Assembly: GCF_004217135.1 (NCBI RefSeq)
Contig: NZ_SHKK01000001.1
Span: 62,001-126,000 of the forward strand
DNA length: 64,000 bases
Direction: 5' to 3'
DNA from: Micromonospora violae
GTDB lineage: Bacteria; Actinomycetota; Actinomycetes; Mycobacteriales; Micromonosporaceae
This document shows positions 36,719-57,822 of the stretch, piece by piece. Both the position numbers and the translations under genes were made by a program. Numbering within the stretch: position 1 is the first letter of the stretch; each line of letters opens with the position of its first letter. Under the pieces are notes generated by a model, which saw only the letters and a program-made list of their open reading frames with translations, ran no database searches and was not told where the DNA came from.

Positions 36719-37600
36719 TCACACCATCCGGGCGGAGTCCTCGCCGACGCTCTGGGCGGGCAGCACCTTCGCCGCCGTCCGCCGGCTCTGGCCCATCCGC
36801 TTCTGCAACCACCAGGCCAGGATCGACAGCGCACCGCAGATGGCGATGTAGATCGCCGCCACGATCAGGTACGTCGGCACGTACGGCAGCCCGAACGGCA
36901 ACCGGCCGCCGATCTGCTTACCCACGAAGAGCAGCTCGGGGTACGTGATGATGAAACCCAGCGCGGTGTCCTTGAGCAGCACCACGAGCTGGCTGACGAT
37001 CGCCGGGAGCATCGACCGGACGGCCTGCGGCAGCAGGATCAGTCGCAGCACCTGGTTCTTGCGCATGCCGACCGCGTACGCGCCCTCGGTCTGCCCGTAC
37101 GGCACCGCGTTGATGCCGGCCCGGAAGATCTCCGCGAGCACCGAGCCGTTGTAGAGCATCAGCCCGATGACCAGCGCCCACAACTTGTCGATCGACCAGC
37201 CGTACTGCAACGGCACGTAGTAGCCGAAGAAGATCAGGATGAGGAGGGGGATCGCCCGGAACAGCTCCACGACGAAGGTCGCCGGGGTACGCAGGATCCA
37301 CTTGTCGCTCAGGCGGGCACTGGCGAACACCGCGCCGAACAGCAGCGCCAGGACGGCGGCGATGCCGGCGGCCTTCAGCGTCGCCCACAGCCCGCCGAGC
37401 AGTTCGCGTTGCACCGAGGCGTACTGGAACTGCTCCCACTTGCGGGCCTCGAACTGGCCGGTGTCGGCGAACTTGTAGCCGATGTAGGCGATGAGAGCGA
37501 TGATGCCGACCGTGGAGGCGACGCCCAGGATCGCGTTACGCCGCTTGGCGCGAGGCCCGGGCAGGTCGTAGAGGATCGACGCCTGGCTCAACTCAACCAT
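36719..37600 (-). CDS. gluD: Glutamate ABC transporter permease GluD
   Basis: A 293-residue inner-membrane permease of the HisM type with five to six helices and the cytoplasmic coupling motif EGAYAVGMRKNQVLRLILLPQAVRSMLP. The N-terminus (VELSQASILYDLPGPRAKRRN) is the usual soluble start of actinobacterial GluD. Together with GluA, GluB and GluC it imports glutamate. Last gene of gluABCD; gap to gluC is 34 bases. Confidence 0.9.
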   Translation of the reverse strand: MVELSQASILYDLPGPRAKRRNAILGVASTVGIIALIAYIGYKFADTGQFEARKWEQFQYASVQRELLGGLWATLKAAGIAAVLALLFGAVFASARLSDKWILRTPATFVVELFRAIPLLILIFFGYYVPLQYGWSIDKLWALVIGLMLYNGSVLAEIFRAGINAVPYGQTEGAYAVGMRKNQVLRLILLPQAVRSMLPAIVSQLVVLLKDTALGFIITYPELLFVGKQIGGRLPFGLPYVPTYLIVAAIYIAICGALSILAWWLQKRMGQSRRTAAKVLPAQSVGEDSARMV

Positions 37601-37634
37601 CCTTCGTTCGCGGCCGTGCGGCTCGCCAGCTCGC

Positions 37635-38291
37635 TCATCGGGCCACCCTCCACTTGCGCTCCAGGATCCGCTGCAACGCCACCAGCGGCAGGATCAGGAT
37701 CAGGAAGCCGATGGTGATCCAGAGCAGGACGGCGAACTGCGGCTCGCCCCGCTCGGCCATGTACGCGGGGATCGCGCCGGCCTCCAGCACCGAGAAACCG
37801 GCGGCGATGGTGGTGTTCTTCAGCATGGCGATGAACACGCTCATCATCGGCGGGACCATCGCCCGCAGCGCCTGCGGCAGCACGATGAGCGTGAGCACCT
37901 GGCCGAAGGTCATCCCGAGTGCTCGGGCTGCCTCGGCCTGCCCGGCGGCGACCGTGTTGACGCCGGAGCGGATCACCTCGCAGATGAACGCCGAGGTGTA
38001 GACGGTCAGCGCGATGGCAGCGCTGGAGAAATAGTCGATGTTGACGTCGAGCTTCGGCACCGCGAACACGAGGAACGCGAAGACCAGCGTCAGAGGGGTG
38101 TTGCGCACCAGGTTGACGTAGGTGGCGCCGAACGCCCGCAGCGCCGGCACGGGGGAGACCCGCATCGCGCCCAGCAGCGTGCCGAGGACGAGGCTGCCGA
38201 CCGCTGCGATCAGGAAAAGTTTGACGGTGTTGGTGAACCCGTCAACGAACAGTTGCCCGTTGTCCGTCAGTACGCGGAAGAACTCGCCCAT
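37635..38291 (-). CDS. gluC: Glutamate ABC transporter permease GluC
   Basis: A 218-residue permease. The EAA-loop is AGQAEAARALGMTFGQVLTLIVLPQALRAMVPP, and the N-terminal part has TNTVKLFLIAAVGSLVLGTLLG. It pairs with GluD as the heterodimeric channel. Second membrane gene of gluABCD. Confidence 0.9.
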   Translation of the reverse strand: MGEFFRVLTDNGQLFVDGFTNTVKLFLIAAVGSLVLGTLLGAMRVSPVPALRAFGATYVNLVRNTPLTLVFAFLVFAVPKLDVNIDYFSSAAIALTVYTSAFICEVIRSGVNTVAAGQAEAARALGMTFGQVLTLIVLPQALRAMVPPMMSVFIAMLKNTTIAAGFSVLEAGAIPAYMAERGEPQFAVLLWITIGFLILILPLVALQRILERKWRVAR

Positions 38292-38371
38292 GCCTCGCTC
38301 TCAGTCCTCGGACGGACGCCGGACGGGGACGAGCCCCGCCCGGCGCCACAACTCGTTGTCGAGCCGTTCGG

Positions 38372-39307
38372 TCAGTACCGCTCGAGGGTGGGCGGGGTGC
38401 CCGCCGAGCCGGACAGGCCGAGCGTGCCGTCGTAGATCTTCTGCCAGGTGCCGTCGCCGAACGACGCCTCGATCTGGTTGTTGACGTAGTCGCGCAGCGC
38501 CTTGTCGTCCTTCGGCAGGCCGATGCCGTACTTCTCGGTGCTGAACGGCTGGCCGACCACCTTCAGCTCGCTCGGGCTCTGCGCCGCGTAGCCCTTGAGG
38601 ATGGCGTCGTCGGTGGTGACGGCGTCGACCTTCTTGTCGAGCAGCTGCGAGACGCACTCGGAGTAGGTCTTGAACTCGACGATGTTCTCCGGCTCGGTCA
38701 GGCCCTCGTCACGGACCTTCTGGATCGGGGTCGAACCGGTGGCCGAGCAGACCTTCTTGCCCTTGAGGGTGTCCTTGCCGGTGATCGACGACTCGTCCTT
38801 GCGGACCAGCAGGTCCTGGCCAGCAACGAAGTACGGGCCGGCGAAGGAGATGTCGTTCTTGCGCTTGTCGGTGATCGAGTAGGTGCCGACGTAGTAGTCG
38901 ACCTCGCCACCCTTGATCGCGGTCTCCCGGTTGGCCGACGCGATCTCCTTGTACTCGATCTTCGCCGGGTCGATGCCCAGCGTGCTCGCCACGTACTGGG
39001 CGATCTCGATGTCGAAGCCGCACCGCTTGCCCTGGGCGTCCTTGTAGCCAAGGTTCGGCTGGTCGAACTTGACGCCGACGGAGACCTTGCCAGCCGTCTT
39101 GATCTTCTCGAAGGTCGGGCTGCCGGCAATGGCCGCGTCGGTCTTCGGAGTGAAGGTCGCGCCGGAGCTCTTGCAGGTGTCACCCTGAGCGGCGCCGGAG
39201 GCGGTGCCGCCCGCGCTCGGGGTCGGCTCACCCTCCTTGCCGCACGCGGCGGCCGACAGGGCGAGGGAGGCCATCATGGCGACCGCCGCCACGCTCTTCA
39301 TACGCAT
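38372..39307 (-). CDS. gluB: Glutamate-binding lipoprotein GluB
   Basis: A 311-residue substrate-binding lipoprotein. ATG 39307 follows AAGGAG and begins MRMKSVAAVAMMASLALSAAAC, with the lipobox Cys at 22. The mature protein is a type II periplasmic-binding fold (TAGKVSVGVKFDQPNLGYKD, CGFDIEIAQYVAS, GGEVDYYVGTYSITDKR). It captures glutamate outside the membrane. Encoded between gluA and gluC. Confidence 0.92.
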   Translation of the reverse strand: MRMKSVAAVAMMASLALSAAACGKEGEPTPSAGGTASGAAQGDTCKSSGATFTPKTDAAIAGSPTFEKIKTAGKVSVGVKFDQPNLGYKDAQGKRCGFDIEIAQYVASTLGIDPAKIEYKEIASANRETAIKGGEVDYYVGTYSITDKRKNDISFAGPYFVAGQDLLVRKDESSITGKDTLKGKKVCSATGSTPIQKVRDEGLTEPENIVEFKTYSECVSQLLDKKVDAVTTDDAILKGYAAQSPSELKVVGQPFSTEKYGIGLPKDDKALRDYVNNQIEASFGDGTWQKIYDGTLGLSGSAGTPPTLERY

Positions 39308-39364
39308 ACTCTTCTCCTTCTTCAACGGAGCCCACCGAGGTGCGGCGCGCTCCACTACGGACGC

Positions 39365-40120
<756 letters not shown>

Positions 40121-42071: not shown

Positions 42072-42320
42072 TCAACTGGCGGCGGTGGCCGACCGGTCCG
42101 TGGTGCCCGATCCGGCGCCCCGTACCACCAGTTGGTCGAGCAGGGTGCGCGTCGCGGCGGCCACCGCGGCCACCGCGGCGTCGAACGCGGCGGCGTTGTG
42201 CGCGGCGGGCGCCCGGAAGCCAGAGATCTTCCGGACGTACTGCAACGCCGCCGCCTCGACGTCCGCGTCGGTCACCTGCGGGGTGAACGGTTCACGCAGC
42301 GTCTTGATGCTCCGGCACAT
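42072..42320 (-). CDS. DUF2277 protein
   Basis: An 82-residue protein starting MCRSIKTLREPFTPQVTDADV and containing ALQYVRKISGFRAPAAHN, the hallmark of DUF2277. GGAGGAGG precedes ATG 42320. Function unknown. It is divergent from the FxS operon, so the 158 bases between 42320 and 42479 hold both promoters. Confidence 0.88.
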   Translation of the reverse strand: MCRSIKTLREPFTPQVTDADVEAAALQYVRKISGFRAPAAHNAAAFDAAVAAVAAATRTLLDQLVVRGAGSGTTDRSATAAS

Positions 42321-42478
42321 GGCAACTCCTCCTCCACCGCGGCCTACCACTCGCCGTGCCGACAGTGGTACCGACGGTGACACTTGGTCGATATTTGTCT
42401 ATCCTGGTCACGGACCAGAGCCGTTCGAGCCACAGCCGCCGCTCGCGCTCCCAGCGCCCCGGCCCCCGGAGACTCATT

Positions 42479-42667
42479 GTGGACCACGCACCCACCCGCC
42501 CATCCCGTCCCGACCTCGTCGATCTGACCCGCAGCCTGCACACCCCGCTGGAACGGGTCGCCGTCGAGCACGCCGATCTGATCGAGGCGGTGCGCCTGCG
42601 CGTCGTCACCAACGACTCCGCGCCGTTCGGCACCGTGGCCGTCGCCGCCTTCAACTCGTCCATCTGA
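42479..42667 (+). CDS. fxsA: FxSxx-COOH RiPP precursor peptide
   Basis: A 62-residue peptide from GTG 42479 (CGGAG in front) that ends FNSSI, the exact C-terminal F-x-S-x-x-COOH signature of the FxS precursors. The leader (about residues 1-45) is acidic and helical, with LVDLTRSLHTPLERVAVEHADLIEAV. In this RiPP family the Phe and Ser of the core (Phe58 and Ser60 here) are the expected crosslink partners of a three-residue cyclophane. The maturase gene begins at the next base after the stop, which fixes the reading. Confidence 0.9.
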   Translation: MDHAPTRPSRPDLVDLTRSLHTPLERVAVEHADLIEAVRLRVVTNDSAPFGTVAVAAFNSSI

Positions 42668-45037
42668 GTGATGGTCTGCCGGTGCGGTCCATCCGCGATG
42701 GGCGGATCCTGCCGGCGGATCAGTCAGTTCGTGCTGAAGGTGCACAGCCGGTGTGACCTCAGCTGCGACCACTGCTACGTCTACCAGCACGCCGACCAGA
42801 CCTGGCGTGGCCGGCCGGCACGGATGTCGCCGGCCACGGTCCAGGCCGCCGCACGGCGCATCGCCGAACACGCCCGCGAGCACGAGTTGTCGATCGTGCA
42901 CGTCGTGCTGCACGGGGGTGAGCCGCTGCTGCTGGGCGCCGCCGGGCTGCGCGAGGTGCTGGCCGAGTTGCGCACCACGATCACCCCATGGGCACGGCTC
43001 GACCTGCGCATGCAGACCAACGGCGTCCTGCTCGACGAGGAGTTGTGCCGGCTGTTCGTCGAGTACGGCGTGCGGGTCGGGGTGTCCTTCGACGGCGACC
43101 GTGCCGCCAACGACCGCCACCGGGTCTTCGCCCACGGCGGCAGCAGCCACGACCACGTGCGGCGGGCGCTGGCCCTGCTCCGGCGGCCGGAACACCGCGC
43201 CAGCTACGCCGGCATCCTCTGCACGATCGACGTCCGCAACGATCCCGACCGGGTGTACGAGGCGCTGCTGGCCGAGAGCCCGCCCCGGGTCGACCTGTTG
43301 CTGCCCCATGCCACCTGGGACAACCCCCCGCAGCGCCCTGGCCCCAGCCCCACCCCGTACGCGGACTGGCTGGGGCGGCTGCACCGAAGGTGGGTGGACG
43401 ACGGCCGCCCGGTGTCGATCCGGATGTTCGAGGCGCTGCGCCCGGGTGGCGGCGGCACCGAGGCGTTCGGCCTGGCCCCGGCCGACGTGCTGGTCATCGA
43501 GGCGGACGGCACCTGGGAGCAGGTCGACTCGTTGAAGACCGCGTACCACGGCGCCGCCGGCACCGGATTCGACGTGTTCGACCACTCGGTGGACGAAGCC
43601 GCTCGGCACCCCGGGGTCGCCGTCCGGCAGGACGGCGTGGACGGCCTCTGCACGACCTGCCGGTCCTGCCCGGTGGTCGACCGGTGCGGCGGCGGCCTGT
43701 ACGCCCACCGCTGGCGCACCGGCTCCGACTTCGACAACCCGTCGGTGTACTGCGCCGACCTGCTCCGCCTGATCGACACCGTGGACGCCCACCTGCCGCC
43801 CACCCGACCCGTGCCGCGCCAACGGCCCGTCACCGGATCCGGGCCGGGTGACTGGTCCGCCACCTCCCCCCTCGACGAGGTGCTGGACGACCTGGCCACC
43901 GGGCACGGGTCCGCGTCGACCCTGGCGCTGCTCGCGGCCACCCAACTCTCCATCACCCGGGCGCTGCTGGCGGCCTGCCGGGACCGGTCCGGCACCACGG
44001 CCGCCTGGGAACTCCTCGTCCACCTCGACCAGGTGGCGCCGGAGGCGGTTCGGGCGGTCCTGGCGCACCCCTTCGTCCGGCCCTCGCTGGTGCATCGCCT
44101 CGGTTCGTCGGCCCCGCCCGGCCTCGCCACGGCAGTCGACCCGCTGCCGGCCCTGGCCATCGCCGCGGCCCTGCGCGCCGGGGTCGCGGCCACAGTGGAC
44201 GTCCCGGCGCGGGCCGACGCGATCACGATGCCCACGCTCGGCAGCCTGGTGCTGCCGGGCCTGGGGGAGAGCGCCGAGGTGACCGTCCGGCCCGGCGAGT
44301 TCCAGGTCCGGGGCGGGTCGGCCGAGCAGTCGGTGCTCCTCGAGCCGCTGGCGTCGCCGTCGGCCGGTTGGCTTCCGACCCGCGAGGTGTCGGTGCCCGG
44401 TGGCCGGCTGCTCCTGGAGGACGGCGACCCGTACCGCGACTGCTACGGCCAGCCCGTGCAGCCCCGCCTGGATGCTCCGGCGGCGGGGGCGTTGGGGCGT
44501 ACCCTGACGGCGGCCTGGCGGGTCGTGCAGCGGGACGTGCCGGCGCACGCGGCGGCGCTCGACGGCGGTCTGCGCGCCGTCGTCCCGTTGGCGCCCGACC
44601 CGGCGCGACCGCTGCGGAGCGCGACCGCCCGGCACGCGTTCGGCGCGGTCGCCGTCACCCCCCATCCCGACCCGGAGACGATGGCGGTGCTGCTCGTGCA
44701 CGAGTGGCAGCACGCGAAGCTGGGTGCGGTGCTCGACCTGTACGACCTGGTCGAACCCGGCCAGGGCAGCCGGATCCGGGTGCCCTGGCGCCCCGACCCG
44801 CGGCCCCCGGAGGGCGTGCTCCAGGGGGTGTACGCCCACCTCGCCGTCACGCAGGTCTGGCGGGCCCGGGCGGCCACCGACCGGGGCGAGGCGTCGGCGC
44901 ACGCGGCCCACTTCCTGGCCTGGACCCGGGACGGCGTCGACGCGCTGCTGGCCAGCCGGTCGCTCACCGCAGCGGGTGAGCGGTTCGTCGGCCAACTGCG
45001 CCACGCCCTGGAGGAGACCCGTGTCGGGTCCCGATGA
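42668..45037 (+). CDS. fxsB: FxsB-type radical SAM/SPASM cyclophane maturase with HExxH domain
   Basis: A 789-residue fusion. The radical SAM motif is Cys29-x3-Cys33-x2-Cys36 (RCDLSCDHCYVYQHADQTW); a SPASM cluster with CTTCRSCPVVDRCGGG..YC lies near residues 328-365. Enzymes of this group crosslink Phe to the residue two positions on in FxSxx-COOH peptides. Residues about 400-789 form an extension with H678EWQH682, the HExxH motif of the family seen as peptide beta-hydroxylase in other RiPP systems; many FxsB extensions have lost it, this one has not. GTG 42668 or ATG 42671 may be the start. Overlaps the next gene by 17 bases. Confidence 0.9.
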   Translation: MMVCRCGPSAMGGSCRRISQFVLKVHSRCDLSCDHCYVYQHADQTWRGRPARMSPATVQAAARRIAEHAREHELSIVHVVLHGGEPLLLGAAGLREVLAELRTTITPWARLDLRMQTNGVLLDEELCRLFVEYGVRVGVSFDGDRAANDRHRVFAHGGSSHDHVRRALALLRRPEHRASYAGILCTIDVRNDPDRVYEALLAESPPRVDLLLPHATWDNPPQRPGPSPTPYADWLGRLHRRWVDDGRPVSIRMFEALRPGGGGTEAFGLAPADVLVIEADGTWEQVDSLKTAYHGAAGTGFDVFDHSVDEAARHPGVAVRQDGVDGLCTTCRSCPVVDRCGGGLYAHRWRTGSDFDNPSVYCADLLRLIDTVDAHLPPTRPVPRQRPVTGSGPGDWSATSPLDEVLDDLATGHGSASTLALLAATQLSITRALLAACRDRSGTTAAWELLVHLDQVAPEAVRAVLAHPFVRPSLVHRLGSSAPPGLATAVDPLPALAIAAALRAGVAATVDVPARADAITMPTLGSLVLPGLGESAEVTVRPGEFQVRGGSAEQSVLLEPLASPSAGWLPTREVSVPGGRLLLEDGDPYRDCYGQPVQPRLDAPAAGALGRTLTAAWRVVQRDVPAHAAALDGGLRAVVPLAPDPARPLRSATARHAFGAVAVTPHPDPETMAVLLVHEWQHAKLGAVLDLYDLVEPGQGSRIRVPWRPDPRPPEGVLQGVYAHLAVTQVWRARAATDRGEASAHAAHFLAWTRDGVDALLASRSLTAAGERFVGQLRHALEETRVGSR

Positions 45038-45845
45038 GCACTCACCGCCCACCCTGGGCCGCCCCCGCCTCGCCGACGACCTGCGGGCGCTGGGCGTACG
45101 CCCGGGGGTGTGCCTGCTGGTGCACTGTGGCCTGCGTCGGGTGGGCCCACTGGAGCACGGCCCGGCGACCCTCGCCGGCGCGCTGCGCGACGTCCTCGGC
45201 CCGGCCGGGACGCTGCTGGTGCCCACCCACACCGACGGCAACTCGACCACCTCCCGGGCCCACCTGGCGGCCACCGCCGGCATGGACCGGGCGCAGCGCG
45301 AACGGTACGAGGCGGCGCTGCCGGGTTGGGACCGCCGGACCACCCCGTCGCAGCGGATGGGTGCGCTCGCCGAGTACGTCCGGTGCGCCCCCGGTGCCGT
45401 GCGCAGTGACCACCCGCAGACCTCGTTCACCGCGCTCGGCTCTCGGGCCCGACAGCTCACCGACGGCCATGACCTCACCTGCCACCTGGGCGAACGCTCA
45501 CCGATGGGCAAGCTCTACGCGGCGGACGGGCAGGTCCTTCTGCTCGGCCTCGGCTACGAGGCGTGCACTGCCCTGCACCTGGCCGAGTACCGGCTGCCGG
45601 TGCCATCCCCCGAGCGCGACTACCACTGCTTCCGCCTCGTCGACGGGCGGCGGGTCCGCCTCGACTTCCGGGCTCTCGATCTGGACGACCGGGACTTCCC
45701 GACGGTGGGTGCCGCGCTCGACGCGACACCGTTGGTGCGGCAGGGCCGGGTGGGGCGGGCCAACGCCCGCCTGCTGCCGGCCCGAGCCGCTGTCGACTTC
45801 GCGACTACCTGGTTCGCCACGAACCGGTTGGCGGCGCGACGTTGA
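45021..45845 (+). CDS. AAC(3)-family acyltransferase of the FxS operon
   Basis: A 274-residue protein starting at GTG 45021 inside the end of fxsB, with GGAGGAG in front. It has the fold pattern of aminoglycoside 3-N-acetyltransferases: LLVHCGLRRVGPLEHG, AGTLLVPTHTD and SDHPQTSFTALG. AAC(3)-like genes are regular members of FxS loci, where they more likely acylate the peptide or another target than an antibiotic. Resistance should not be assumed from this annotation. Confidence 0.85.
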   Translation: MSGPDEHSPPTLGRPRLADDLRALGVRPGVCLLVHCGLRRVGPLEHGPATLAGALRDVLGPAGTLLVPTHTDGNSTTSRAHLAATAGMDRAQRERYEAALPGWDRRTTPSQRMGALAEYVRCAPGAVRSDHPQTSFTALGSRARQLTDGHDLTCHLGERSPMGKLYAADGQVLLLGLGYEACTALHLAEYRLPVPSPERDYHCFRLVDGRRVRLDFRALDLDDRDFPTVGAALDATPLVRQGRVGRANARLLPARAAVDFATTWFATNRLAARR

Positions 45846-45897
45846 CGTGGGGACTACGCTGATGGTCCGGCCGCGTGGGGAGGGCGGAGGGGCTGCG

Positions 45898-46554
45898 GTG
45901 AGCACAGTGGACGCACCCTCCGGCGCGCGCGCCCCGCTCTTCTTCATCAGTTACTCGGGCGCGCCGGTCGGCCGGGCCACCGGCCAACCCGCCGAGCACC
46001 TCTCCCGGTTCTTCGTGGACCTGTCCGTTCACGTCAGTGAACTGGTCGGCCCGGTAACCGGAGTGGACGCCGGTTTTCTGGACACCTCCATCGCCGGCGG
46101 GGAACAGTGGAGCCCGGAGCTTCTCCAGGCCGCCGGCACCTGCCAGGTCTTCGTCCCGCTGGTGTCCAGCGCGCTGATCCTCAGCGACTGGTGTGGCCGG
46201 GAATGGGACGCGTTCTCCCGGCGGCGGGTCACCCCGCGACACAGCTCCGCCTCGGTCCACGAGACGGCGATCGTGCCGGTCACCTGGTCGTCGACGAGCG
46301 GCATGGCACTGCCTCGGGTGCTCCGCGACATCCAGCGCTTCACCCCGACCGCGCCGGATCCCGGCATCGCCGCGCACTACCAGCGGGAGGGGGTCTATGG
46401 CTTGCTGTCCATGGAGTGGGAGAACATGTACCGGGTGGTGGTCTGGCGGCTCGCGCAGCGGATCGTGGACATCCACCGGTCGTACCTGGTCGAACCCTGG
46501 GTGCCAGCGAGCGTGGACGAGCTGTGCAACAGGTTCGTCGAGGAGCCGCAGTGA
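45898..46554 (+). CDS. TIR-domain protein of the FxS operon
   Basis: A 218-residue TIR protein. GTG 45898 follows GGAGGGG; ATG 45862 is in frame but has a poorer site. The TIR core starts APLFFISYSG, and the segment SSALILSDWCGREW carries the Glu (WCxxE) that is catalytic in TIR NADases. It is shorter than the following TIR gene and lacks a long C-terminal domain. NAD+ cleavage or protein-protein signalling are both possible. Ends with GTGA overlap into the next gene. Confidence 0.85.
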   Translation: MSTVDAPSGARAPLFFISYSGAPVGRATGQPAEHLSRFFVDLSVHVSELVGPVTGVDAGFLDTSIAGGEQWSPELLQAAGTCQVFVPLVSSALILSDWCGREWDAFSRRRVTPRHSSASVHETAIVPVTWSSTSGMALPRVLRDIQRFTPTAPDPGIAAHYQREGVYGLLSMEWENMYRVVVWRLAQRIVDIHRSYLVEPWVPASVDELCNRFVEEPQ

Positions 46555-47825
46555 GTCCGCCGACGGGCCGGCGTCGCCCGGCGTCGCGCGGGACGTACTT
46601 CTTCCTCAGCTATGCCCACTCGGCGCCGGCACCCGGAGCCCGCGCCGACGCCGACGCCGACGCCTGGGTCCGTAAATTCTTCACCGACCTGACCGACGAG
46701 GTGCGGCGCCAGGCGCGACCGGTGGCCGGGATGCGGATCGGCTTCTTCGACCAGGACATTCCGTTGGGCGCCGACTGGAAGGCCGCCCTCGCCGAGGCGC
46801 TCGGTGACGCCGAGGTCTTCGTCCCGCTCTACTCGCCCGGCTACTTCAGCCGGCCCTGGGCACTGGGGGAGCAGGAGTCCTTCCGGGCCCGGCTGGCCGC
46901 CGCCGGGCCGGCCCGGGCCACCGCCGGTCACCTCACCCCGGTGCTGTGGATCCCGTTCCCCCCGTGGGAGACGCATCCGGAGTTGGATGCCGCACTGGAC
47001 CTGGCTCGGGACGTCCCGGAGTACGCCGAGAACGGCCTCCGCGCGCTCCACATGCTGGATTCTTACAAAGGGCCGTACCGGCTGCTGCTGAGTCGACTGG
47101 CGAGCCGGATCGTGCACACCGCCGAGCGGCGACCGATGGGTCCGTCCCGGGCGCCCGGCCTGGACGAGGTCGTCCGCCCGACGCCGACCGACCCGGACCT
47201 CGTGGTCGCCGTGCTGGCCCCGACCCGGGACCGGCTGCCGACCGGTCGCGACCCCGCCGGCTACGCCGCCAGCAGCCGGCTCTGGCGGCCGTACGGGCGC
47301 AGCCAGCAGCTACCCGCCGCCGAGTACGCGGCCAGCACCGCCGAGCGGCTCGGGCTGTCGGCCCGTACGGAGGACTTCGCGCAGGCGTCCGCGCTGCTCG
47401 ATCGGCGGCCGGCCGTGCTGCTGGTCGACCCGTGGATCGCGGCGACGCCGGACGCGGCGGCGGTCCTCGCCCGCATGCTGAGCGGCCTGCGCGAGTGGGT
47501 CGTTCCGCTGGTGGTCACCGACGACGACAGTCAGGACGCCACCCGCCGGGCCACCGAGGTGACCCAACTGCTGCAGAACGCCGGGCTGCCCCAGGTGAAG
47601 CGGGCGTGCAGCATGCGGGAGTTCGTCGACCTGATGCCGGCGCTGGTCACCGAGGCACGCCGGCAGTTCCTCAAGTACGGCCCGGTGGTCCCCTTCGAAC
47701 CACCGGGCGAGCCGGTGCCGAGCCTGCGTGACGGTTTTCCCGCCGCCGGCTCGACCGTGCCCACCGACCCCGCGTCCCCGCCTGCTGATCCGGGCCCACC
47801 GCGTCCCCACGGAGAAGACCGATGA
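46551..47825 (+). CDS. fxsC: TIR-like protein FxsC
   Basis: A 424-residue protein. Residues about 15-195 are a TIR domain (YFFLSYAH.., FFDQDIPLGADWK, LYSPGYFSRPWALGEQESF); the WCxxE position reads WALGE, so the candidate catalytic Glu is kept but the Cys is not. Residues about 210-400 are the FxsC-specific region (VVAVLAPTRDRLP, SSRLWRPYGRSQQLPAAEYAA). The Pro-rich end is probably flexible. GTG 46551 overlaps the previous stop by four bases, and its own stop overlaps the next start by four. Confidence 0.85.
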   Translation: MSPPTGRRRPASRGTYFFLSYAHSAPAPGARADADADAWVRKFFTDLTDEVRRQARPVAGMRIGFFDQDIPLGADWKAALAEALGDAEVFVPLYSPGYFSRPWALGEQESFRARLAAAGPARATAGHLTPVLWIPFPPWETHPELDAALDLARDVPEYAENGLRALHMLDSYKGPYRLLLSRLASRIVHTAERRPMGPSRAPGLDEVVRPTPTDPDLVVAVLAPTRDRLPTGRDPAGYAASSRLWRPYGRSQQLPAAEYAASTAERLGLSARTEDFAQASALLDRRPAVLLVDPWIAATPDAAAVLARMLSGLREWVVPLVVTDDDSQDATRRATEVTQLLQNAGLPQVKRACSMREFVDLMPALVTEARRQFLKYGPVVPFEPPGEPVPSLRDGFPAAGSTVPTDPASPPADPGPPRPHGEDR

Positions 47826-50800
47826 ACAACGATCGCGACGGCCAGGTCGTCACCTTCTACTCGTTCAAGGGTGGAACGGGTCGGACGATGGCGCTGGCCA
47901 ACGTGGCCTGGATCCTGGCGGCCAGCGGCCGGCGGGTGCTGGTCGCCGACTGGGACCTTGAGTCACCTGGTCTGCACCGCTTCTTCCACCCGTTCCTCGA
48001 CGCCGAGGCGATCCAGGGCACCAGCGGCGTGATCGACATGATCCGTGACTACGAGTGGGAGACCACCCGGGTCGACGACCGGCCGGACCGCTGGATGGAG
48101 CAGTACGCCCGGGTCGGGCGACACGCGTTCTCGCTGCGCTGGAACTTCCCCGACGGTGGCGGCCTCGACTTCCTCTCCGCCGGCCGGCAGAACAGCGACT
48201 ACGCCGTGTCGGTGAGCGGGCTGGACTGGGACAACTTCTACAACCGGCTGGGCGGGGCGCAGTTCTTCGAGGCGCTGCGCGCGGACATGAAGCGCCAGTA
48301 CGACTTCACCCTGATCGACAGTCGGACGGGGTTGAGCGACGTCGCCGACATCTGCACCCTGCACCTGCCGGACACCCTGGTCGACTGCTTCACGCTCAGC
48401 GACCAGGGCATCGACGGCGCGGCCCGGGTGGCGCACTCGGTGCGGGACCGGTACCGGCGGCGCGACATCCGGGTCCTGCCGGTGCCGATGCGGGTCGACC
48501 AGGCCGAGAAGGAGCGCGCCGAGGCGGGTCGTCTGCTGGCCATGCGCCGGTTCGCCGGTTTGCCGGCCGGCATGACCGAGGCGGAACGGCGGCGTTACTG
48601 GGCCGCGGTGGAGGTCCCGTACCGGCCGTTCTACGCGTACGAGGAGACCCTCGCCACGTTCGGCGACCCGCCCGGCTCGCCGACGTCGCTGCTGGCCGCG
48701 TTCGAGACGCTGACCGGGGTCCTCACCGACGGCGCGGTGACCGCGCTGCCGGTGATGGACGAGTCGGTGCGGGAACGGGGCAAGGCCCGGTTCCGTCGAC
48801 GCACCGAGGCGATCGACGACCAGATCGTGCTCCGGTACGCGCCGGAGGACGCCATCTGGGCCGAGTGGTTGGAGCGGGTGCTCAGCTCGGCCGGGATGCA
48901 GGTGGTGGAACCCACCGCCGCGGTCGGGTCGGCCGGTACGCCGGCCCCGCGGACGTTGACAGTGGTCTCGCCGGCCTACGTGGCGACCCCGTCCGGTGGT
49001 CTGCCGGAGCGTGACACCAGCACCGGCTCCACCGCCCTCGCCGTGTACGTCGCCGACCTGCGCCCACTGGCGGAGTTCCCGTCCCAGAGTTCCACCAACC
49101 TGGTCAACGTCAGCGCCGCGACCGCCGTGGAGCGGGTGTTGCGGCTGGTCGGCCGTCCGGTGCCGTCGTCGGCGGACGGGCCGGCGGGCGGGGCGACCCG
49201 GTATCCCGGCACCGAGCCGTTGATCTTCAATGCGCCCAACCGGAACGCCCGGTTCACCGGTCGTGAGGACGACCTGGCGCGGCTGCGCGCGCAGTTGCAG
49301 AGCGGGGGCAGCGCGGTGGTGCTGCCGGTCGCCCTGCAGGGCATGGGCGGTGTCGGCAAGACGCAGGTGGCCCTGGAGTACGTGCACCGGTTCAAGGCCG
49401 CGTACGACGTGGTCTGGTGGATCGTGGCGGACCCGCCGCAGTTCGTCGACACCGCGCTGGCCGACCTCGCCGGTCGCCTCGGCATCCTCGTCGGGCCGAC
49501 CCTGCCCGACACGGTCCGGTCGGTGTTGCAGGTGCTCGGCCGTGGTGAGCCGTACGAGCGGTGGCTGGTCGTGCTGGACAACGCCGAAGAGCTCGACCAG
49601 ATCGAGCCCTTCCTGCCGCAGGGCCCCGGGCACGTTCTGCTGACCTCCCGTAACCGCGCCTGGGGTGACCGGGCGAACCCGATCCAGGTGGACGTCTTCG
49701 ACCGCACCGAGAGCGTGGCGCACCTCGCCCAGCGGGTGCCCACGATCAGCGCCGAGGAGGCCGACCGGGTGGCCGAGGCGCTCGGCGACCTGCCGATCGC
49801 GGTGGCGGCGGCGGGCGCCTGGCTCGCCGACACCGGCACGTCGGTCGCCGACTACCTGCGGCAGATCGAGCGGCACGGCCCCAGCGCCCTCTCCGTGGAG
49901 GCCACCTGGGACCTGTCGCTGAACCGCCTGCTCGAGCAGGCGCCCGCGGCGTACCGGTTGTTGCAGCTCTGTTCGGTGCTGGCCCCGGAGATCGCCCTGG
50001 ACCTCATCTACAGCGACGAGATGGCGGCGGCCCTGGTGCCGTTCGACCCGTCGGTGTCGGAGCGGCTCGTGCGCGGTGCCCTGGTCCAGCAGATCAACCG
50101 CCTGGCGCTGCTCAAACTCGACGTGCAGGGCGGTCGGGTCCAGGTGCACCGGCTGTTGCAGGCGGTGGTCCGGGACCGGATGACCGATGACGAGATCGCC
50201 GCCGCCCGACACCAGGTGCACCTGGTGCTGGCCGCGTCCCGGCCCCGCGGCGACGTGGACGACCCGACCACCTGGGCCCGGCTGCGCATGCTGTGGCCGC
50301 ACCTGGAGGTTTCCGAGGCGCTGACCTGCCCCGACGAGCCGGTGTGTCAGCTGCTGATCGACCGGGTCCGTTATCTGTGGCAGCGCGGCGGTCTGGACCA
50401 GGCCGACGTGTTCAGCCAGGAGGTGGACGAGACCTGGAGCGCCCGGCTCGGCGACACCCGCGAGGAGGTCGAGGCGTCGGCGCTGGGCCGGCAGCTGCTG
50501 CACCTGCGGTTCAACCGGGCGAACATCTTGCGCAGCCTGGGCCGGTTCAGCGAGGCCCGGGACCTGGACGAGGCGGTGCTGGCCGAGCAGCGCCGACTGC
50601 TGGGCACGTTGCACCCGCACAGTCTGATGACCGCCGGTAGCCTCGGCGCTGACCTGCGGGCGCTCGGCCGCTACGCCGACGCCCTGGATCAGGACCGGTC
50701 CACCTACGCCTCCTGGCTCCAGGGGTTCGGCGAGGACCACCCCCGGACGTTGAGCGCGGCCAACAACCTCGCCGTCTCGTACCGGCTGGTCGGCGACTAC

Positions 50801-51691
50801 CGGTCGGCCCGTCGCTGGGACGACGAGGTGTTCCAGCGGCGGCGGGTGGTGCTCGGCCACAACCATCCCTACACTCTCGTCTCCGCCGTGCGGCTGGGCA
50901 GTGACCTGCGGGAGGCCGGCGAGTACGAGAGGTCGGCCACCCTGCTGCGCACGGTGTACGACACGTGCTGCGAGGTGCTCGGGCCGGAGGACGGCCAGAG
51001 TCTCGCCGCTCAGGTCAACCTGGCGGTGTCGCTGCGCAGCTCCGGTCGGGGCAGTGAGGCCGCGCCGCTGTTCGAGGCGGCCTACCGGGAGCTCGACGAC
51101 CGCTTCGGTCCGGACAATCCAGACACGGTGGCGTGCCGGTCGAGTCGTGCGGCGAACCTGTTGGCGGTCGGTGACGCGGCTCGGGCACTGACCGAGATGA
51201 CCGCGGTGCGTCTGGCGTTCGAGGAGCGACTCCGGCTCGGTCCGGAGCACCCGCACGCGTTGGCGACGGTGAGCAACATCTCGGCGGCGGAGCGTGCCCT
51301 CGGGCGCCGATCGGACGCGCTCGCGTCGGCGGCCCGGGCGGTCACCGAGTTGCGTAAGGTGCTCGGGCCGGACCACCCGCACACGCTCGCGGCCGAGGTC
51401 AACCAGGCGGTGTGCCTCGCCGAGGAGGGTGACTGGGCGTCGGCACGGGACCGGCTGCGGGAGACGGCCGGCCGGTTGGCCACGGTGATTGGCGCGGACC
51501 ACCCGGACACGCTGCGCTGCCTCGGTGATCTCGCACTGGTGGCGCGGAGGGCCGGTGACGGCCCCGCCACCGAGGACGTCGGGGTGGTGGCGGACCGGTT
51601 GGCCGAGGTGATCGGGGTGGAGCATCCGACCGTGCAGACCCTGCGGGAACGGCGGTTCGTGGTCCGGGTGATCGACCCGCACACGATCTGA
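47822..51691 (+). CDS. FxS-system ParA-like ATPase/NB-ARC NTPase/TPR protein
   Basis: A 1289-residue protein. Residues about 8-300 are a ParA/MinD-like ATPase with a deviant Walker A (KGGTGRT, 16-22). Residues about 325-420 look like a degenerate TIR or linker (IVLRYAPEDAIWAEWLERVLSSAGM). Residues about 475-800 are an NB-ARC/STAND NTPase with P-loop G507MGGVGKT514 and Walker B WLVVLDNAEE. From about 880 to 1285, seven or more kinesin-light-chain-like TPRs follow (HPHSLMTAGSLGADLRALG, DHPHTLAAEVNQAV). Such STAND-TPR proteins oligomerise on sensing a ligand. It ends the FxS operon. Confidence 0.9.
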   Translation: MNNDRDGQVVTFYSFKGGTGRTMALANVAWILAASGRRVLVADWDLESPGLHRFFHPFLDAEAIQGTSGVIDMIRDYEWETTRVDDRPDRWMEQYARVGRHAFSLRWNFPDGGGLDFLSAGRQNSDYAVSVSGLDWDNFYNRLGGAQFFEALRADMKRQYDFTLIDSRTGLSDVADICTLHLPDTLVDCFTLSDQGIDGAARVAHSVRDRYRRRDIRVLPVPMRVDQAEKERAEAGRLLAMRRFAGLPAGMTEAERRRYWAAVEVPYRPFYAYEETLATFGDPPGSPTSLLAAFETLTGVLTDGAVTALPVMDESVRERGKARFRRRTEAIDDQIVLRYAPEDAIWAEWLERVLSSAGMQVVEPTAAVGSAGTPAPRTLTVVSPAYVATPSGGLPERDTSTGSTALAVYVADLRPLAEFPSQSSTNLVNVSAATAVERVLRLVGRPVPSSADGPAGGATRYPGTEPLIFNAPNRNARFTGREDDLARLRAQLQSGGSAVVLPVALQGMGGVGKTQVALEYVHRFKAAYDVVWWIVADPPQFVDTALADLAGRLGILVGPTLPDTVRSVLQVLGRGEPYERWLVVLDNAEELDQIEPFLPQGPGHVLLTSRNRAWGDRANPIQVDVFDRTESVAHLAQRVPTISAEEADRVAEALGDLPIAVAAAGAWLADTGTSVADYLRQIERHGPSALSVEATWDLSLNRLLEQAPAAYRLLQLCSVLAPEIALDLIYSDEMAAALVPFDPSVSERLVRGALVQQINRLALLKLDVQGGRVQVHRLLQAVVRDRMTDDEIAAARHQVHLVLAASRPRGDVDDPTTWARLRMLWPHLEVSEALTCPDEPVCQLLIDRVRYLWQRGGLDQADVFSQEVDETWSARLGDTREEVEASALGRQLLHLRFNRANILRSLGRFSEARDLDEAVLAEQRRLLGTLHPHSLMTAGSLGADLRALGRYADALDQDRSTYASWLQGFGEDHPRTLSAANNLAVSYRLVGDYRSARRWDDEVFQRRRVVLGHNHPYTLVSAVRLGSDLREAGEYERSATLLRTVYDTCCEVLGPEDGQSLAAQVNLAVSLRSSGRGSEAAPLFEAAYRELDDRFGPDNPDTVACRSSRAANLLAVGDAARALTEMTAVRLAFEERLRLGPEHPHALATVSNISAAERALGRRSDALASAARAVTELRKVLGPDHPHTLAAEVNQAVCLAEEGDWASARDRLRETAGRLATVIGADHPDTLRCLGDLALVARRAGDGPATEDVGVVADRLAEVIGVEHPTVQTLRERRFVVRVIDPHTI

Positions 51692-51715
51692 CCGGGCACC
51701 CGGTCTGGCGGGTGC

Positions 51716-52648
51716 TCAGACTTGCGGGCTGGTCGCGAGGTCCGGCGTGGCCAGCCAGGTCAGGGTCTGCGGCAGGATCTCCACCGCCCCGAAGTGCGCG
51801 GCGCCGGGCTGCACCTGCACCTCGGCGCGGGGGATCTGCGAGGCGAGCCAGTGGGAGTGTTCCACCGGGGAGAACCGATCCTGTTCGCCGTGCCAGAGCC
51901 GGACCTCCGCCTGGATGGCGCCCAGGTCGAACCCCCAGCCGCGGCGGATCGCCAGCACGTCGTCGATCCACCCTTCGGGGCCGTGCCGCAGCGCCTCGGC
52001 GTACATGTCGGTCAGCAGTCGACGGATCGCGACGTCGTCGACGACCCGGATGTCCTCGTCGGGCAGTTGGGGGCGGAGGAAGTCCAGCAGCGTCATCGGG
52101 TCTCGGCGAGCCTCCTCCGCCCGGACCTTCAGGTTGAGCGTGAGCTCAGCCAGGTCCTCGTCGGCCTGCCCGTAGTCCTCGACGTTCGATTCCGCCATGC
52201 CCGCGTACCAGTCGAGGTCGGGTGCCCCGGCCGGGGCGAGCCCCACCAGCACGGCGGCCCGGGTGACCCGGTCCGGTAGCAGCGCGGCGCAGGCCAGGGC
52301 ATGTGGCCCGCCACCGGATCGGCCGACCACCGCGAACCGGTCGATGCCGAGGTCGTCGGCGATCGCCGCCACGTCGGCCGCGGCGTCGGCCACCCGTCGA
52401 CCCTCGTGCCGGTCGGAGTCGCCGTACCCGGGGCGGTCGTAGCAGACGAGGTGTACGCCGAGGCGGTAGACGACGATGCCTCGGGGCCGGGGGCCACTGC
52501 GGCTGCCCGGGGTGCCGTGCAACAGGAAGACGGCCGGTCCGTCCGGTGCGCCCGAGGTCTCCACCGCGAGGTGCCGTCCGTCCGACGTCGTGACGGTGCG
52601 CTGCGTCGCCTCTTGTCGCGTCACGGTTGGCCTCCCGCGGGTCGTCAT
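51716..52648 (-). CDS. Alpha/beta hydrolase
   Basis: A 310-residue hydrolase; ATG 52648 with GGGGGAG in front. The oxyanion region is [11 protein letters not shown], the nucleophile is in [12 protein letters not shown], the acid is in [12 protein letters not shown] and the His in GAAHFG. A cap of about 90 residues (after GLAPAGAPD) is typical of epoxide-hydrolase or esterase-like members. Substrate unknown. It faces the end of the FxS operon (25 bases between stops), and is divergent from miaB. Confidence 0.88.
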
Positions 52649-52844
52649 GTGCTCCCCCGTGAACGGAGCCGCGCATCGTCGGCGCCGAGTGCAAAGCCCC
52701 CGAAATCGCCCAGAACACATCCTTGTTGTGCAGCGTACTGCCCGTCGTGGATGCCCGCCATGGGCCGGCGGGTCAATGCCGGTGGGTGGGGGTCACCGAA
52801 CGGGCCGCTACCCTGGTAGCCCGAGGGGAAGGGGCACCAAGAGG

Positions 52845-54338
52845 GTGGCTAGGACCTACAACGTCGTGACGTACGGCTGCCAGATGAACGTGCACGATTC
52901 TGAGCGAATCTCCGGCCTGCTCGAACAGGCCGGCTACGTGCGCGCGGTGCCGACCGACGACACCCCGGACATCGTCGTCTTCAACACCTGCGCGGTGCGG
53001 GAGAACGCGGACAACCGGCTCTACGGCAACCTCGGCCGCCTGCGCCCGGTGAAGGACAAGCATCCCGGAATGCAGATCGCGGTCGGCGGCTGCCTGGCCC
53101 AGAAGGACCGGGGCGACATCGTTCGCAAGGCGCCCTGGGTGGATGTGGTCTTCGGCACCCACAACATCGGCGCGCTGCCGGTGCTGTTGGAGCGGGCCCG
53201 GCACAACGCCGCCGCCGAGGTGGAGATTCTGGAGGCCCTCGACGTCTTCCCCTCCACGCTGCCGACCCGCCGCGAGTCCACGTACGCCGGCTGGGTGTCG
53301 ATCTCGGTGGGATGCAACAACACCTGCACGTTCTGCATCGTGCCGGCGCTGCGCGGCAAGGAGAAGGACCGGCGCCCCGGCGACATCCTCTCCGAGGTAC
53401 GCGCCCTGGTCGACGAGGGCGTGCTGGAGGTGACCCTGCTCGGGCAGAACGTCAACTCGTACGGTGTCGAGTTCGGTGACCGGTACGCGTTCGGCAAGCT
53501 GCTGCGGGCGTGTGGCGACATCGACGGGTTGGAGCGCGTGCGGTTCACCAGCCCGCACCCGAAGGACTTCACCGATGACGTGATCGCGGCGATGGCTGAG
53601 ACGCCGAACGTCTGCCACTCGCTGCACATGCCGTTGCAGTCCGGCTCCGACGACGTGCTCCGGGCGATGCGCCGGTCCTACCGTTCCGAGCGCTACCTGG
53701 GGATCATCGAGAAGGTCCGCGCGGCGATGCCGGACGCGGCCATCACCACCGACATCATCGTCGGTTTCCCCGGCGAGACCGAGGCCGATTTCCAGCGCAC
53801 CCTGGACGTGGTCCGGGAGGCCCGGTTCTCCTCGGCCTTCACCTTCCAGTACTCGAAGCGGCCCGGCACCCCCGCCGCGACCATGGACGACCAACTGCCC
53901 AAGCAGGTCGTGCAGGAGCGTTACGAGCGGCTGGTCGCGGCCGTCGAGGAGATCACCTGGGCGGAGAACAAGCGCCTCGTCGGGGAGACCGTCGAGGTGC
54001 TGGTCGCGGTCGGCGAGGGCCGTAAGGACGAGCGGACCGGCCGGATGTCGGGTCGGGCCCGGGACGGTCGACTGGTGCACTTCGCCACCGAGACCGCCGA
54101 CGGGGAGTCCCTCGCCGGGCAGATCCGGCCGGGCGACATCGTGCACACCACCATCACGTACGCCGCGCCGCACCACCTGAACGCCGACGGAGCACCGGTG
54201 GCGCACCGGCGCACCCGGGCCGGCGACGCGGCCGAGGCGGGTCGCTCCCCGCGTACCCCCGGGGTGTTGCTGGGTCTGCCGACGATCGGCGCACCGCCGG
54301 TCGCGCCGGCCCCCGCCGCCGGCTGCGCCGCGCACTGA
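52845..54338 (+). CDS. miaB: tRNA-2-methylthio-N6-dimethylallyladenosine synthase MiaB
   Basis: A 497-residue radical SAM methylthiotransferase acting on i6A37 of tRNA. The N-terminal UPF0004 domain has the three cluster Cys ([21 protein letters not shown]), the radical SAM motif is CNNTCTFC, and a TRAM domain follows (about residues 375-445). The last 50 residues (from [18 protein letters not shown]) are a Pro/Ala-rich tail beyond the usual end. GTG 52845 begins [15 protein letters not shown]. Its substrate-making partner miaA is at 60116. Confidence 0.95.
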
Positions 54339-54380
54339 CCGCACGGAGGGGCCCCTGGACGAGGGGCCCCTCCGCGGTCA
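54336..54380. terminator. Bidirectional hairpin terminator containing both stop codons
   Basis: GGAGGGGCCCCT (54345-54356) and AGGGGCCCCTCC (54362-54373) form a perfect 12-bp stem with a 5-base loop; an outer TGACCGC (54336-54342) pairs with GCGGTCA (54374-54380). The TGA of miaB and the TGA (as TCA) of the pectate lyase gene are the two ends of the structure. Confidence 0.75.
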
Positions 54381-55727
54381 GACGGTGATCTTGCCGGCGC
54401 CGGCCCCGGCCGTGACGATGGACTTGACGTTGCTCGCGGTGTCCAGCTGGTAGGAGTACGGGATGCTGGCCACGCTGCCGCCGGCCTGGCCGGTGGGCGA
54501 GTTGACGAAGTGGTTGTTGCGGGCGACCAGGCTGCCCGGCCCCGAGTCGCCCTCACCGCGGTGGTACGGGTCGTCGACGTTCTCGAAGTAGTTGCCCTCG
54601 ACGAGCACGCCGGCGTTCTCGGTGGACGCGACGCCGTAGCCGCCGTTGGCCCGGTAGTAGTTGTTGTACACGTGCACCGGGTTGCCGAAGCGCACCCGGG
54701 GGTTGCGTTGGTTGCTGCCGTCGAACCAGTTGTGGTGGTAGCTGACCCGTAGGTGGCCGACGTCCTGGCCGGCGTTGTCGTCGCTGTGGCCGAGCAGCAT
54801 GGTCTTGTCGTGGCTGAAGACCCGGTTCCACGAGACGGTGATGAAGTCCGAGCCGCGCTTGATGTCGACGGCGCCGTCGTACCCGTTGCTGAAGCTGTTG
54901 TGGTCGATCCAGATGTTGGTGGCCGACTCCTGCACGTTGATCGCGTCGTCGTTCCAGTTGCGGAAGGTCAGATTGCGGATGATCACGTTGCGGTCGCCGT
55001 TGATGTTGAACCCGCAGCCGACGATCGTCGCCCCGTAGTTACCGATGATGGTCTTGTTGGACCGGACCCGCAGCATCCCCGAGCAGGTGATGGTCCCGGT
55101 CACCCGGATCACCGCGGCACCGGTGGCGTTCAGCGCGCTGGTCAGGCCCGAGGCGTTGCTGACGGTGGTGGTGCCGGCGTTGCCGCCGCCGGTGGTGCCG
55201 CCGTTCTGGGTGGCCCAGCCGACCAGCGTCGACGGCTCCTGGTTGGTGGGTGGGGGAGTGCTCGACGGTGGCGGGGTGGTCGACGGCGGGGTGGTCGGTG
55301 TGGTGCTGCCGGTGCAGGCGACGTTGTTCAGGGTGAAGCTGCTCGGAGCCGGGTTGCTGGAGTTGTTCCAGCTGGCGTTGAAGCCGAACGTGGTGCTGCC
55401 GTTGGTCGTCAGGGTGCCGTTGTAGTCGACGTTGGTCGCGGAGACCTGGCTGCCGCTCTGTGCGACGGTGGCGCCCCACGCCTGGCTGACCTGCTGGCCG
55501 GCCCCGTACGACCAGCGCAGCGTCCACCCGGAGACCGGGTCGCCGAGGTTGGTGACGGTGACGTTGCCGGTGAATCCGCCCGGCCACTGGCTGGCGACCG
55601 AGTAGGCCACCTGGCAGCCGGCGGCCGCCTGGGCGGACACGGAGGTCAGTAGCCCGGCGGAGACCAGGGTCGCGGTGGCTGCGGCGGTGGTGGCGATCAG
55701 CGTCATTCGACGCCGTCCTGTGCGCAT
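54378..55727 (-). CDS. CBM2-pectate lyase (PL1 family), secreted
   Basis: A 449-residue extracellular enzyme. ATG 55727 follows AAGGAAG. A signal peptide (1-32, ending AQAAA) precedes a cellulose-binding CBM2 (about 33-135, CQVAYSVASQWPGGFTGNVTVTN), a Thr/Pro/Ser linker (about 136-165), and a parallel beta-helix pectate lyase (about 175-449) with IWIDHNSFSNGYDGAVDIKRGSD, VSYHHNWFDGSNQRNPRVRFG and its catalytic Arg. It cleaves polygalacturonan while the CBM2 holds it on plant cell wall. A LacI-type palindrome lies upstream. The gene belongs to an inserted polysaccharide island with the next gene. Confidence 0.9.
   Translation of the reverse strand: MRTGRRRMTLIATTAAATATLVSAGLLTSVSAQAAAGCQVAYSVASQWPGGFTGNVTVTNLGDPVSGWTLRWSYGAGQQVSQAWGATVAQSGSQVSATNVDYNGTLTTNGSTTFGFNASWNNSSNPAPSSFTLNNVACTGSTTPTTPPSTTPPPSSTPPPTNQEPSTLVGWATQNGGTTGGGNAGTTTVSNASGLTSALNATGAAVIRVTGTITCSGMLRVRSNKTIIGNYGATIVGCGFNINGDRNVIIRNLTFRNWNDDAINVQESATNIWIDHNSFSNGYDGAVDIKRGSDFITVSWNRVFSHDKTMLLGHSDDNAGQDVGHLRVSYHHNWFDGSNQRNPRVRFGNPVHVYNNYYRANGGYGVASTENAGVLVEGNYFENVDDPYHRGEGDSGPGSLVARNNHFVNSPTGQAGGSVASIPYSYQLDTASNVKSIVTAGAGAGKITV

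Positions 55728-55963: not shown

Positions 55964-57822
<1,859 letters not shown>

Follow-up and report, generated by a model that had tools for sequence, protein, structure and literature searches.

A seven-gene FxS cassette with an FxsT-linked alpha/beta-hydrolase in Micromonospora violae

What are the FxS peptides of actinomycetes for, and which genes work with them? The parts of this system are common in the Micromonosporaceae, yet no established purpose of the peptide has been found. The question is raised again by a locus in the window, that is, the whole stretch of 64,000 nucleotides (nt) of Micromonospora violae analysed here (NZ_SHKK01000001.1, positions 62,001 to 126,000). Judged by its sequence, this locus represents an FxsBH-type FxS cassette of seven genes that has been inserted between a DUF2277 gene and miaB. 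A sequence-only reading had described it as a complete operon of six genes for a ribosomally synthesized and post-translationally modified peptide (RiPP), with a peptide precursor, a radical SAM/SPASM enzyme, an AAC(3)-like protein, two TIR proteins and a ParA-NB-ARC-TPR protein. All six genes are present on a single strand at the coordinates it gave; the unit, however, extends past 51691 and takes in a seventh gene, encoding an alpha/beta-hydrolase on the opposite strand. We regard this anatomy, including the membership of the hydrolase, as nearly certain. As to function, we tentatively propose an intracellular switch, in which the peptide would trigger a STAND-TIR pair and the hydrolase would belong to the receptor arm; the chance that this predicted scheme is right seems to us a little short of even.

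The hydrolase and the limits of the cassette

Here, we compared 57 loci, namely the window and 56 loci from species genomes that range from Micromonospora to Streptomyces, Catenulispora and metagenome-assembled genomes of Streptosporangiaceae. In all 47 loci that contain FxsT and at least 700 nt downstream of it, the hydrolase lies behind FxsT on the opposite strand, with a gap between the two open reading frames (ORFs) that is below 500 nt in 40 loci and reaches up to 2.8 kb in seven. The other ten comprise four loci that end at FxsT (L008, L010, L032 and L047) and six without FxsT on the plus strand (L018, L039, L041, L048, L051 and L055), among which L018, L039 and L051 are cut short. The genomes of the family give a similar result: of the 53 best hydrolase matches (at least 265 bits) in 150 of them, 52 have FxsB or FxsT no more than 20 kb away and the remaining one adjoins an FxsT interrupted by a contig end, while just one of the next 17 matches (184-240 bits) has either gene so near. 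These proximity counts draw on the best 70 hydrolase matches, 138 FxsB matches (those over the cut-off plus one broken copy) and 150 FxsT matches among those listed.

Blind gene clustering was performed on 23 loci, hand-picked from the 57 to reduce near-copies, with a gene caller that skips genes of fewer than 50 codons. FxsB was recovered in 23 loci, FxsT in 22, the hydrolase in 21, FxsC in 20 and the acetyltransferase in 15, so that in this comparison only FxsB and FxsT are more widely conserved than the hydrolase. The only other families found in at least four loci are an ABC ATPase (5, the family of the window gene at 39365), SLATT proteins (4) and a 178-residue protein without Pfam match (4). 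Thus the comparison of gene content called for by the sequence-only reading shows that the peptide machinery and the STAND/TIR families recur jointly in many genera, with little else in common.

The boundaries of the cassette can be read from its insertion site. The distance between DUF2277 and miaB is 10,525 nt in the window (start to start) versus about 80-94 nt (tblastn ends) in each of the four related genomes fetched from eight searched. These empty sites lack the hydrolase, whereas the insertion of about 10.5 kb contains it; two of the empty-site genomes (G003 and G123) carry FxsB and the hydrolase elsewhere in the chromosome. Based on its adjacency to FxsT in all 47 loci, the location of its closest relatives in FxS loci, its recurrence in the clustering and its inclusion in the insertion, the hydrolase is taken as a member of the system. 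The delimited insertion also provides a defined set of seven genes for transfer and testing.

Two other accounts of the association were tried and rejected. One is that the hydrolase is merely a neighbor of miaB; it follows FxsT where there is no miaB, the empty sites lack it, and families foreign to FxS occur in no more than 5 of the 23 loci. The other ties it to the FxsBH fusion, or to the beta-hydroxylase activity, since it is found within 12 kb of 32 of the 34 FxsB proteins of at least 700 residues, taken as fused to the HExxH domain, versus 13 of the 104 short ones (the two classes being set by open-frame length). The FxsT tree fits better, and loss of the HExxH motif does not entail loss of the hydrolase. 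It follows one FxsT clade, including loci without peptide genes: L109, L110 and L112 have FxsT and the hydrolase (and FxsC in L109 and L112), and no FxsB, HExxH gene or FxSxx-ending ORF was found in the 16-18 kb fetched for each.

The Ser-Asp-His triad of the hydrolase is intact and invariant, as are several tryptophans, and its nearest solved fold is 9wlv, followed mostly by esterases, lipases and related hydrolases. Could it then be the missing maturation enzyme, which cuts the leader or an ester or amide, in a RiPP pathway regulated by the STAND/TIR genes? Its NCBIfam relatives include the prolyl aminopeptidase TIGR01249 (45 bits, below cut-off), no other protease family recurs across the loci, and it accompanies nearly all of the long FxsB proteins as counted above. 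However, the hydrolase stays with FxsT in the three loci where neither precursor-type ORF nor FxsB was found, most short-FxsB loci lack it although they need leader removal too, and the esterases, lipases and related hydrolases that prevail among the solved folds after 9wlv also count against this role. Consequently we consider the maturation role unlikely, and a place in the receptor arm the probable one.

In the window, no terminator was found between fxsT and the hydrolase gene and no sigma-70-like promoter for the latter, and an alternative upstream ATG would extend the hydrolase to 334 residues (to 52720). No fusion of the hydrolase to an Fxs domain was seen in the 120 of 7029 relatives that were listed, nor in the gene sets, under a length limit that barred fusions to FxsT. 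Some unusual arrangements were also observed. In L102 (G081:C3) the hydrolase, instead of following FxsT, directly precedes a 72-residue gene and FxsB, with which it shares the strand, and two copies stand side by side on opposite strands in one FxS locus each of two genomes (G087:C8:273398-275468 and G133:C1:1695558-1697627).

Components of the cassette

The features are listed in Table 1. FxsB, FxsC and FxsT all exceed the curated NCBIfam cut-offs within this one locus. As the sequence-only reading had it, nearly all neighboring genes touch or overlap: the intergenic distance is 0 nt for fxsA/fxsB, the overlaps are 17 nt for fxsB/acetyltransferase and 4 nt each for fxsC1/fxsC2 and fxsC2/fxsT, and only the acetyltransferase and fxsC1 are spaced (+52). 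It should be noted that these figures depend on the start codons selected here.

Table 1. Coordinates of the FxS cassette and of neighboring or related features (window positions unless a locus number is given).
Feature	Position	Strand	Evidence or remark
Promoter-like site GTGACA-17-TATCCT	42377..42405	+	73 nt 5' of fxsA
fxsA, 62-residue precursor ending FNSSI-COOH	42479..42667	+	F-x-S-x-x ORF pattern
fxsB (FxsBH), 789 residues	42668..45037	+	TIGR04269 546 bits; TIGR04267 150 bits
AAC(3)-fold N-acetyltransferase, start codon uncertain	45021..45845	+	PF02522 255 bits; FrbF 162 bits
fxsC1, TIR-only FxsC, start codon uncertain	45898..46554	+	NF040588 147 bits
fxsC2, TIR and C-terminal flavodoxin/TIR-like domain	46551..47825	+	NF040588 150 bits; TIGR04276 73 bits
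fxsT, 1289 residues	47822..51691	+	NF040586 959 bits; NF047398 138 bits; Pfam NB-ARC, TPR_12
FxsT-linked alpha/beta-hydrolase, 302 residues	51716..52624	-	Convergent with fxsT; absent from the sequence-only reading
Whole FxS insertion	42321..52844	.	Between DUF2277 (42072-42320, -) and miaB (52845-54338, +)
SLATT genes of Streptomyces loci	L043:8528-9412, L044:8454-9350, L046:5082-6017, L048:8572-9453, L056:8539-9396	-	
Distant SLATT relative	L130:10481-11371	+	118 bits; 1.8 kb from FxsB
Four-gene ABC importer	36719-40120	-	Upstream of the cassette
CBM2-linked pectate lyase	54378-55706	-	Beside miaB
CBM2-linked GH5 cellulase	55964-57547	-	Beside miaB

The precursor ending in FNSSI is indeed located directly 5' of fxsB, although a search of FxsA against NCBIfam and Pfam gave no match at E 0.001. 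Exactly one ORF ending in F-x-S-x-x was found around the fxsB start in the window and in each of the 55 related loci that hold this region (the 56th, L058, begins inside fxsB and is outside the count), against a single background match when these 56 stretches were read on the antisense strand. Among these 56 C-termini, whose F and S are imposed by the search itself, the second of the last five residues is N in 33 cases, Q in 13 and G in 6; S or A occupies the fourth place in 52 and I or L the fifth in 48. The promoter-like site before fxsA was found once, versus 0.1 times expected in shuffles, and GTGACA followed at equal spacing by TATCCT or TATTCT is kept in all 15 aligned Micromonospora sequences.

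FxsB was rightly taken for a radical SAM/SPASM enzyme, while the fused C-terminal HExxH domain had been overlooked. Residues 18-372 correspond to the radical SAM/SPASM cyclophane synthase and residues 614-777 to an alpha-ketoglutarate-dependent (aKG) HExxH peptide beta-hydroxylase; TIGR04267 scores far above its cut-off of 40 on the C-terminus, with the motif HEWQH intact. In the Protein Data Bank (PDB), solved relatives are 9gm3 (the radical SAM domain of ChlB) and 22nu, which spans residues 396-782. The model of the inactivated FxsBH form, NF040587, was not reached (173.8 bits, cut-off 225), and the HExxH motif is retained. From its InterPro number, MscB is presumably a member of the FxsB family. 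Passages of its description report that MscB forms links between C4 of Phe and Cbeta of Ser (PMC11002830). By analogy of sequence, FxsBH probably forms a Phe-Ser link and adds a hydroxyl group to the peptide.

FxsB is present in 83 of the 150 genomes of the family. The HExxH motif lies inside the aligned domain in 107 of 121 sequences, and the 14 misses were re-examined in the whole protein: in L121 the motif is beyond the called boundary, L018 is truncated, and L048 and L056 have a separate gene with HEFQH. The motif is lost in the FxsBH of L039-L044, L046, L048, L056 and L057, which matches the 'inactivated' form of NCBIfam. The hosts are some Streptomyces, Actinacidiphila, Microbispora and Acrocarpospora, and the HEFQH gene of L048 and L056 is a second one.

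The AAC(3)-like identity of the third gene product was borne out by its Pfam match and by H131, H186 and E189, which are invariant in all 39 full-length copies. Its closest solved relative is FrbF, and the model of the aminoglycoside resistance AAC(3) proper, NF033082, was not reached (173 bits, cut-off 270). It was detected in 34 of the 56 fused-FxsB loci and 5 of the 27 short-FxsB loci, truncated loci counted. Since it is patchy across both classes and yet keeps its His and Glu residues, the acetyltransferase looks like an optional tailoring enzyme of the peptide. In L021 of Streptomyces beijiangensis (L021:18736, minus strand), it is located beyond the hydrolase, on the opposite strand and outside the operon.

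AAC(3)-fold enzymes and esterases are also typical self-resistance folds. They would fit a toxin or antibiotic that is secreted or released, with the acetyltransferase and the hydrolase in self-protection and the STAND/TIR proteins triggering production or release; 'peptide toxin or signal' is the wording of Kaur et al., 2020 (PMC7159879). However, the five C-terminal residues vary little, unlike those expected of arms-race toxins, and 22 of the 56 fused and 22 of the 27 short-FxsB loci gave no acetyltransferase. The operon of six genes contains no transporter or protease gene, as had been stated, and a dedicated exporter with a leader protease, as in a classical exported RiPP, is not conserved in the 23 loci, where nothing nearer to an exporter recurs than the ABC ATPase family (5). 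An exported toxin is therefore improbable in our view. That the peptide is an intracellular trigger of FxsT is the alternative that we favor, with slightly less than even confidence.

The two TIR proteins were identified as FxsC and the protein of 1289 residues as FxsT, in agreement with the domains that had been recognized. A catalytic-type TIR Glu is kept in both FxsC proteins of the window (WCGRE in FxsC1, WALGE in FxsC2); among 70 loci, 67 have one or more FxsC copies with this Glu. The predicted model of FxsC2 (predicted local distance difference test score 83.7) has the TIR fold by structure matches. By fold and Glu, FxsC would belong to the TIR type that cleaves nicotinamide adenine dinucleotide (NAD+), the cleavage itself being predicted. 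FxsT comprises a MinD/ParA-like domain with the variant motif KGGVGR, a linker domain, an NB-ARC STAND NTPase and TPRs. By eye, residues about 326-460 in the central part of FxsT resemble a degenerate TIR, but such a domain is not claimed, as profile comparison with FxsC gave a probability of only 4%.

FxsT exceeds its cut-off in 107 of the 150 genomes, with several copies in many. Such abundance, together with a conserved promoter-like site of the housekeeping type, suits developmental or physiological signalling rather than immunity, in which FxsT would read the peptide as an internal messenger and TIR activity would tune the NAD+ pools. On the other hand, the patchy presence, the insertion as a cassette, the TIR/NB-ARC/TPR architecture and the SLATT neighbors resemble conflict systems (PMC7159879), and we rate this explanation as low as that of the toxin. 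A two-transmembrane protein of the SLATT_3/SLATT_1 type is encoded near the precursor in five of five Streptomyces loci, on the strand opposite to FxsB and 0.5-0.6 kb away from it; the FxsB proteins of these loci are 81-89% identical, and all five have the protein of 178-180 residues without Pfam match. No SLATT gene occurs within the cassette of the window. By their own account, Kaur et al., 2020 had predicted SLATT proteins as pore-forming effectors responsive to nucleotide signals (PMC7159879); their presence is in line with a conflict role, as a lineage-limited support.

Other FxS loci are double. In L124, L126, L127, L128 and L138, a pair of FxsC-FxsT blocks surrounds a single short FxsB gene or two of them; a separate HExxH gene is present in some, and several have the blocks on opposite strands. 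Outside the cassette, the ABC importer (ATPase, family 3 solute-binding protein and two permeases) is also a neighbor of the empty site in each of the four genomes, three of its genes being less identical in two of them. The pectate lyase and the cellulase lie on the other side.

The proposed switch

The steps of the favored switch would be as follows. FxsBH would make the Phe-Ser link and hydroxylate the peptide, which the acetyltransferase may tailor. The modified peptide would remain in the cell and serve FxsT as a ligand or co-ligand; the TPR/NB-ARC part of FxsT would oligomerise and turn on the FxsC TIRs, with NAD+ cleavage or a nucleotide signal as the output. The hydrolase, in the receptor/TIR output arm, would be a second effector, or an enzyme generating or removing the signal.

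Several points weigh against this scheme. Adjacency and co-phylogeny are association, not mechanism, and the functions of FxsC, FxsT and the hydrolase are predicted ones. A leader-removing protease was not found in the loci compared, so that the hydrolase may have a peptidase role. In three Actinoplanes loci (L024, L025 and L029), FxsT and the hydrolase are retained but no FxsC carries the catalytic-type Glu, which makes a universal NADase activity less likely. L048 and L055 have FxsB with no hydrolase match, L041 yields nothing but weak fragments of the hydrolase, and FxsT is missing from the plus strand of all three; in L112, L117 and L118 the hydrolase shares the strand of FxsT, so its orientation varies. 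Most short-FxsB loci possess FxsT and FxsC without the hydrolase, which is consequently dispensable for the basic circuit, and the loci without peptide genes could be decaying. Finally, the PADLOC models of known defence systems (Thoeris, Avs and others) lend no clear support: FxsT matched the candidate model PDC-M28B (80 bits) and FxsB weakly pVip (31 and 17 bits), with no match for FxsA, the acetyltransferase, either FxsC or the hydrolase.

A more specific form of the proposed switch is that one FxsT clade, of receptors like TIR-NLRs, has an obligate hydrolase partner that would make, read or destroy the signal from peptide to TIR; we find it rather doubtful, if somewhat less so than the maturation role. 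We know of no described STAND/TIR immune system with such a hydrolase as co-receptor or effector. The hydrolase is tractable, and its substrate would reveal the role of the receptor arm and make the purpose of the FxS peptide directly testable.

Known systems

The paper cited as Kaur et al., 2020 is by Kaur, Burroughs, Iyer and Aravind. It describes standalone FxS peptide-processing systems with an AP-ATPase bearing an inactive MinD/ParA-like domain, and proposes a peptide toxin or signal (PMC7159879). Since Kaur et al., 2020 already couple peptide systems to STAND proteins (PMC7159879), the central idea of the sequence-only reading, a peptide wired to STAND/TIR proteins, is in print; it is upheld here by recurrent co-occurrence and by the lack of a recurring exporter in the loci compared, but not as a new idea. 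The parts of those systems, i.e., the FxSxx precursor, radical SAM-SPASM enzyme, HExxH 'metallopeptidase' and AP-ATPase with TPRs and a MinD/ParA-like domain, are all present in the cassette. The HExxH protein was read there as a protease, whereas later work, in the passages available, has it as an aKG-dependent hydroxylase (PMC12636437). In the 12 of 16 places covered, the 2020 paper mentions an alpha/beta-hydrolase with caspase-type VMAP and GTPase-centric systems, calls the caspase pairing mutually exclusive with peptide systems and names no AAC(3)-like enzyme (PMC7159879), while the cassette has one.

In the NCBIfam description of the FxSxx-COOH system, TIGR04269, NF040588, TIGR04276, NF040586 and TIGR04267 are all above cut-off here, whereas no FxS model is among those matched by the acetyltransferase or the hydrolase. 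Neither the acetyltransferase nor this FxsT-linked hydrolase was found described as an FxS part in the literature searched, whose coverage left out most subscription papers. As far as searched, the new element is thus a conserved hydrolase not previously assigned to FxS. Its nearest solved structure, 9wlv from Microlunatus sagamiharensis, is titled merely alpha/beta-fold hydrolase, and its other solved relatives share 15-23% identity.

The fused enzymes of the ChlBH type (Morishita et al., 2024, cited in PMC12636437) have, according to the passages concerned, the same fusion of radical SAM and aKG-HExxH domains; the function of ChlBH was shown on its own precursor, whereas FxsBH here is known from its sequence. 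As for the TIR proteins, AbTir, SPARTA TIR-APAZ and the plant TIR-NLRs (L6/L7 and RUN1) differ from the cassette, in which TIR is on separate FxsC proteins, next to a STAND protein that has ParA-like and TPR regions, and which has a RiPP of its own.
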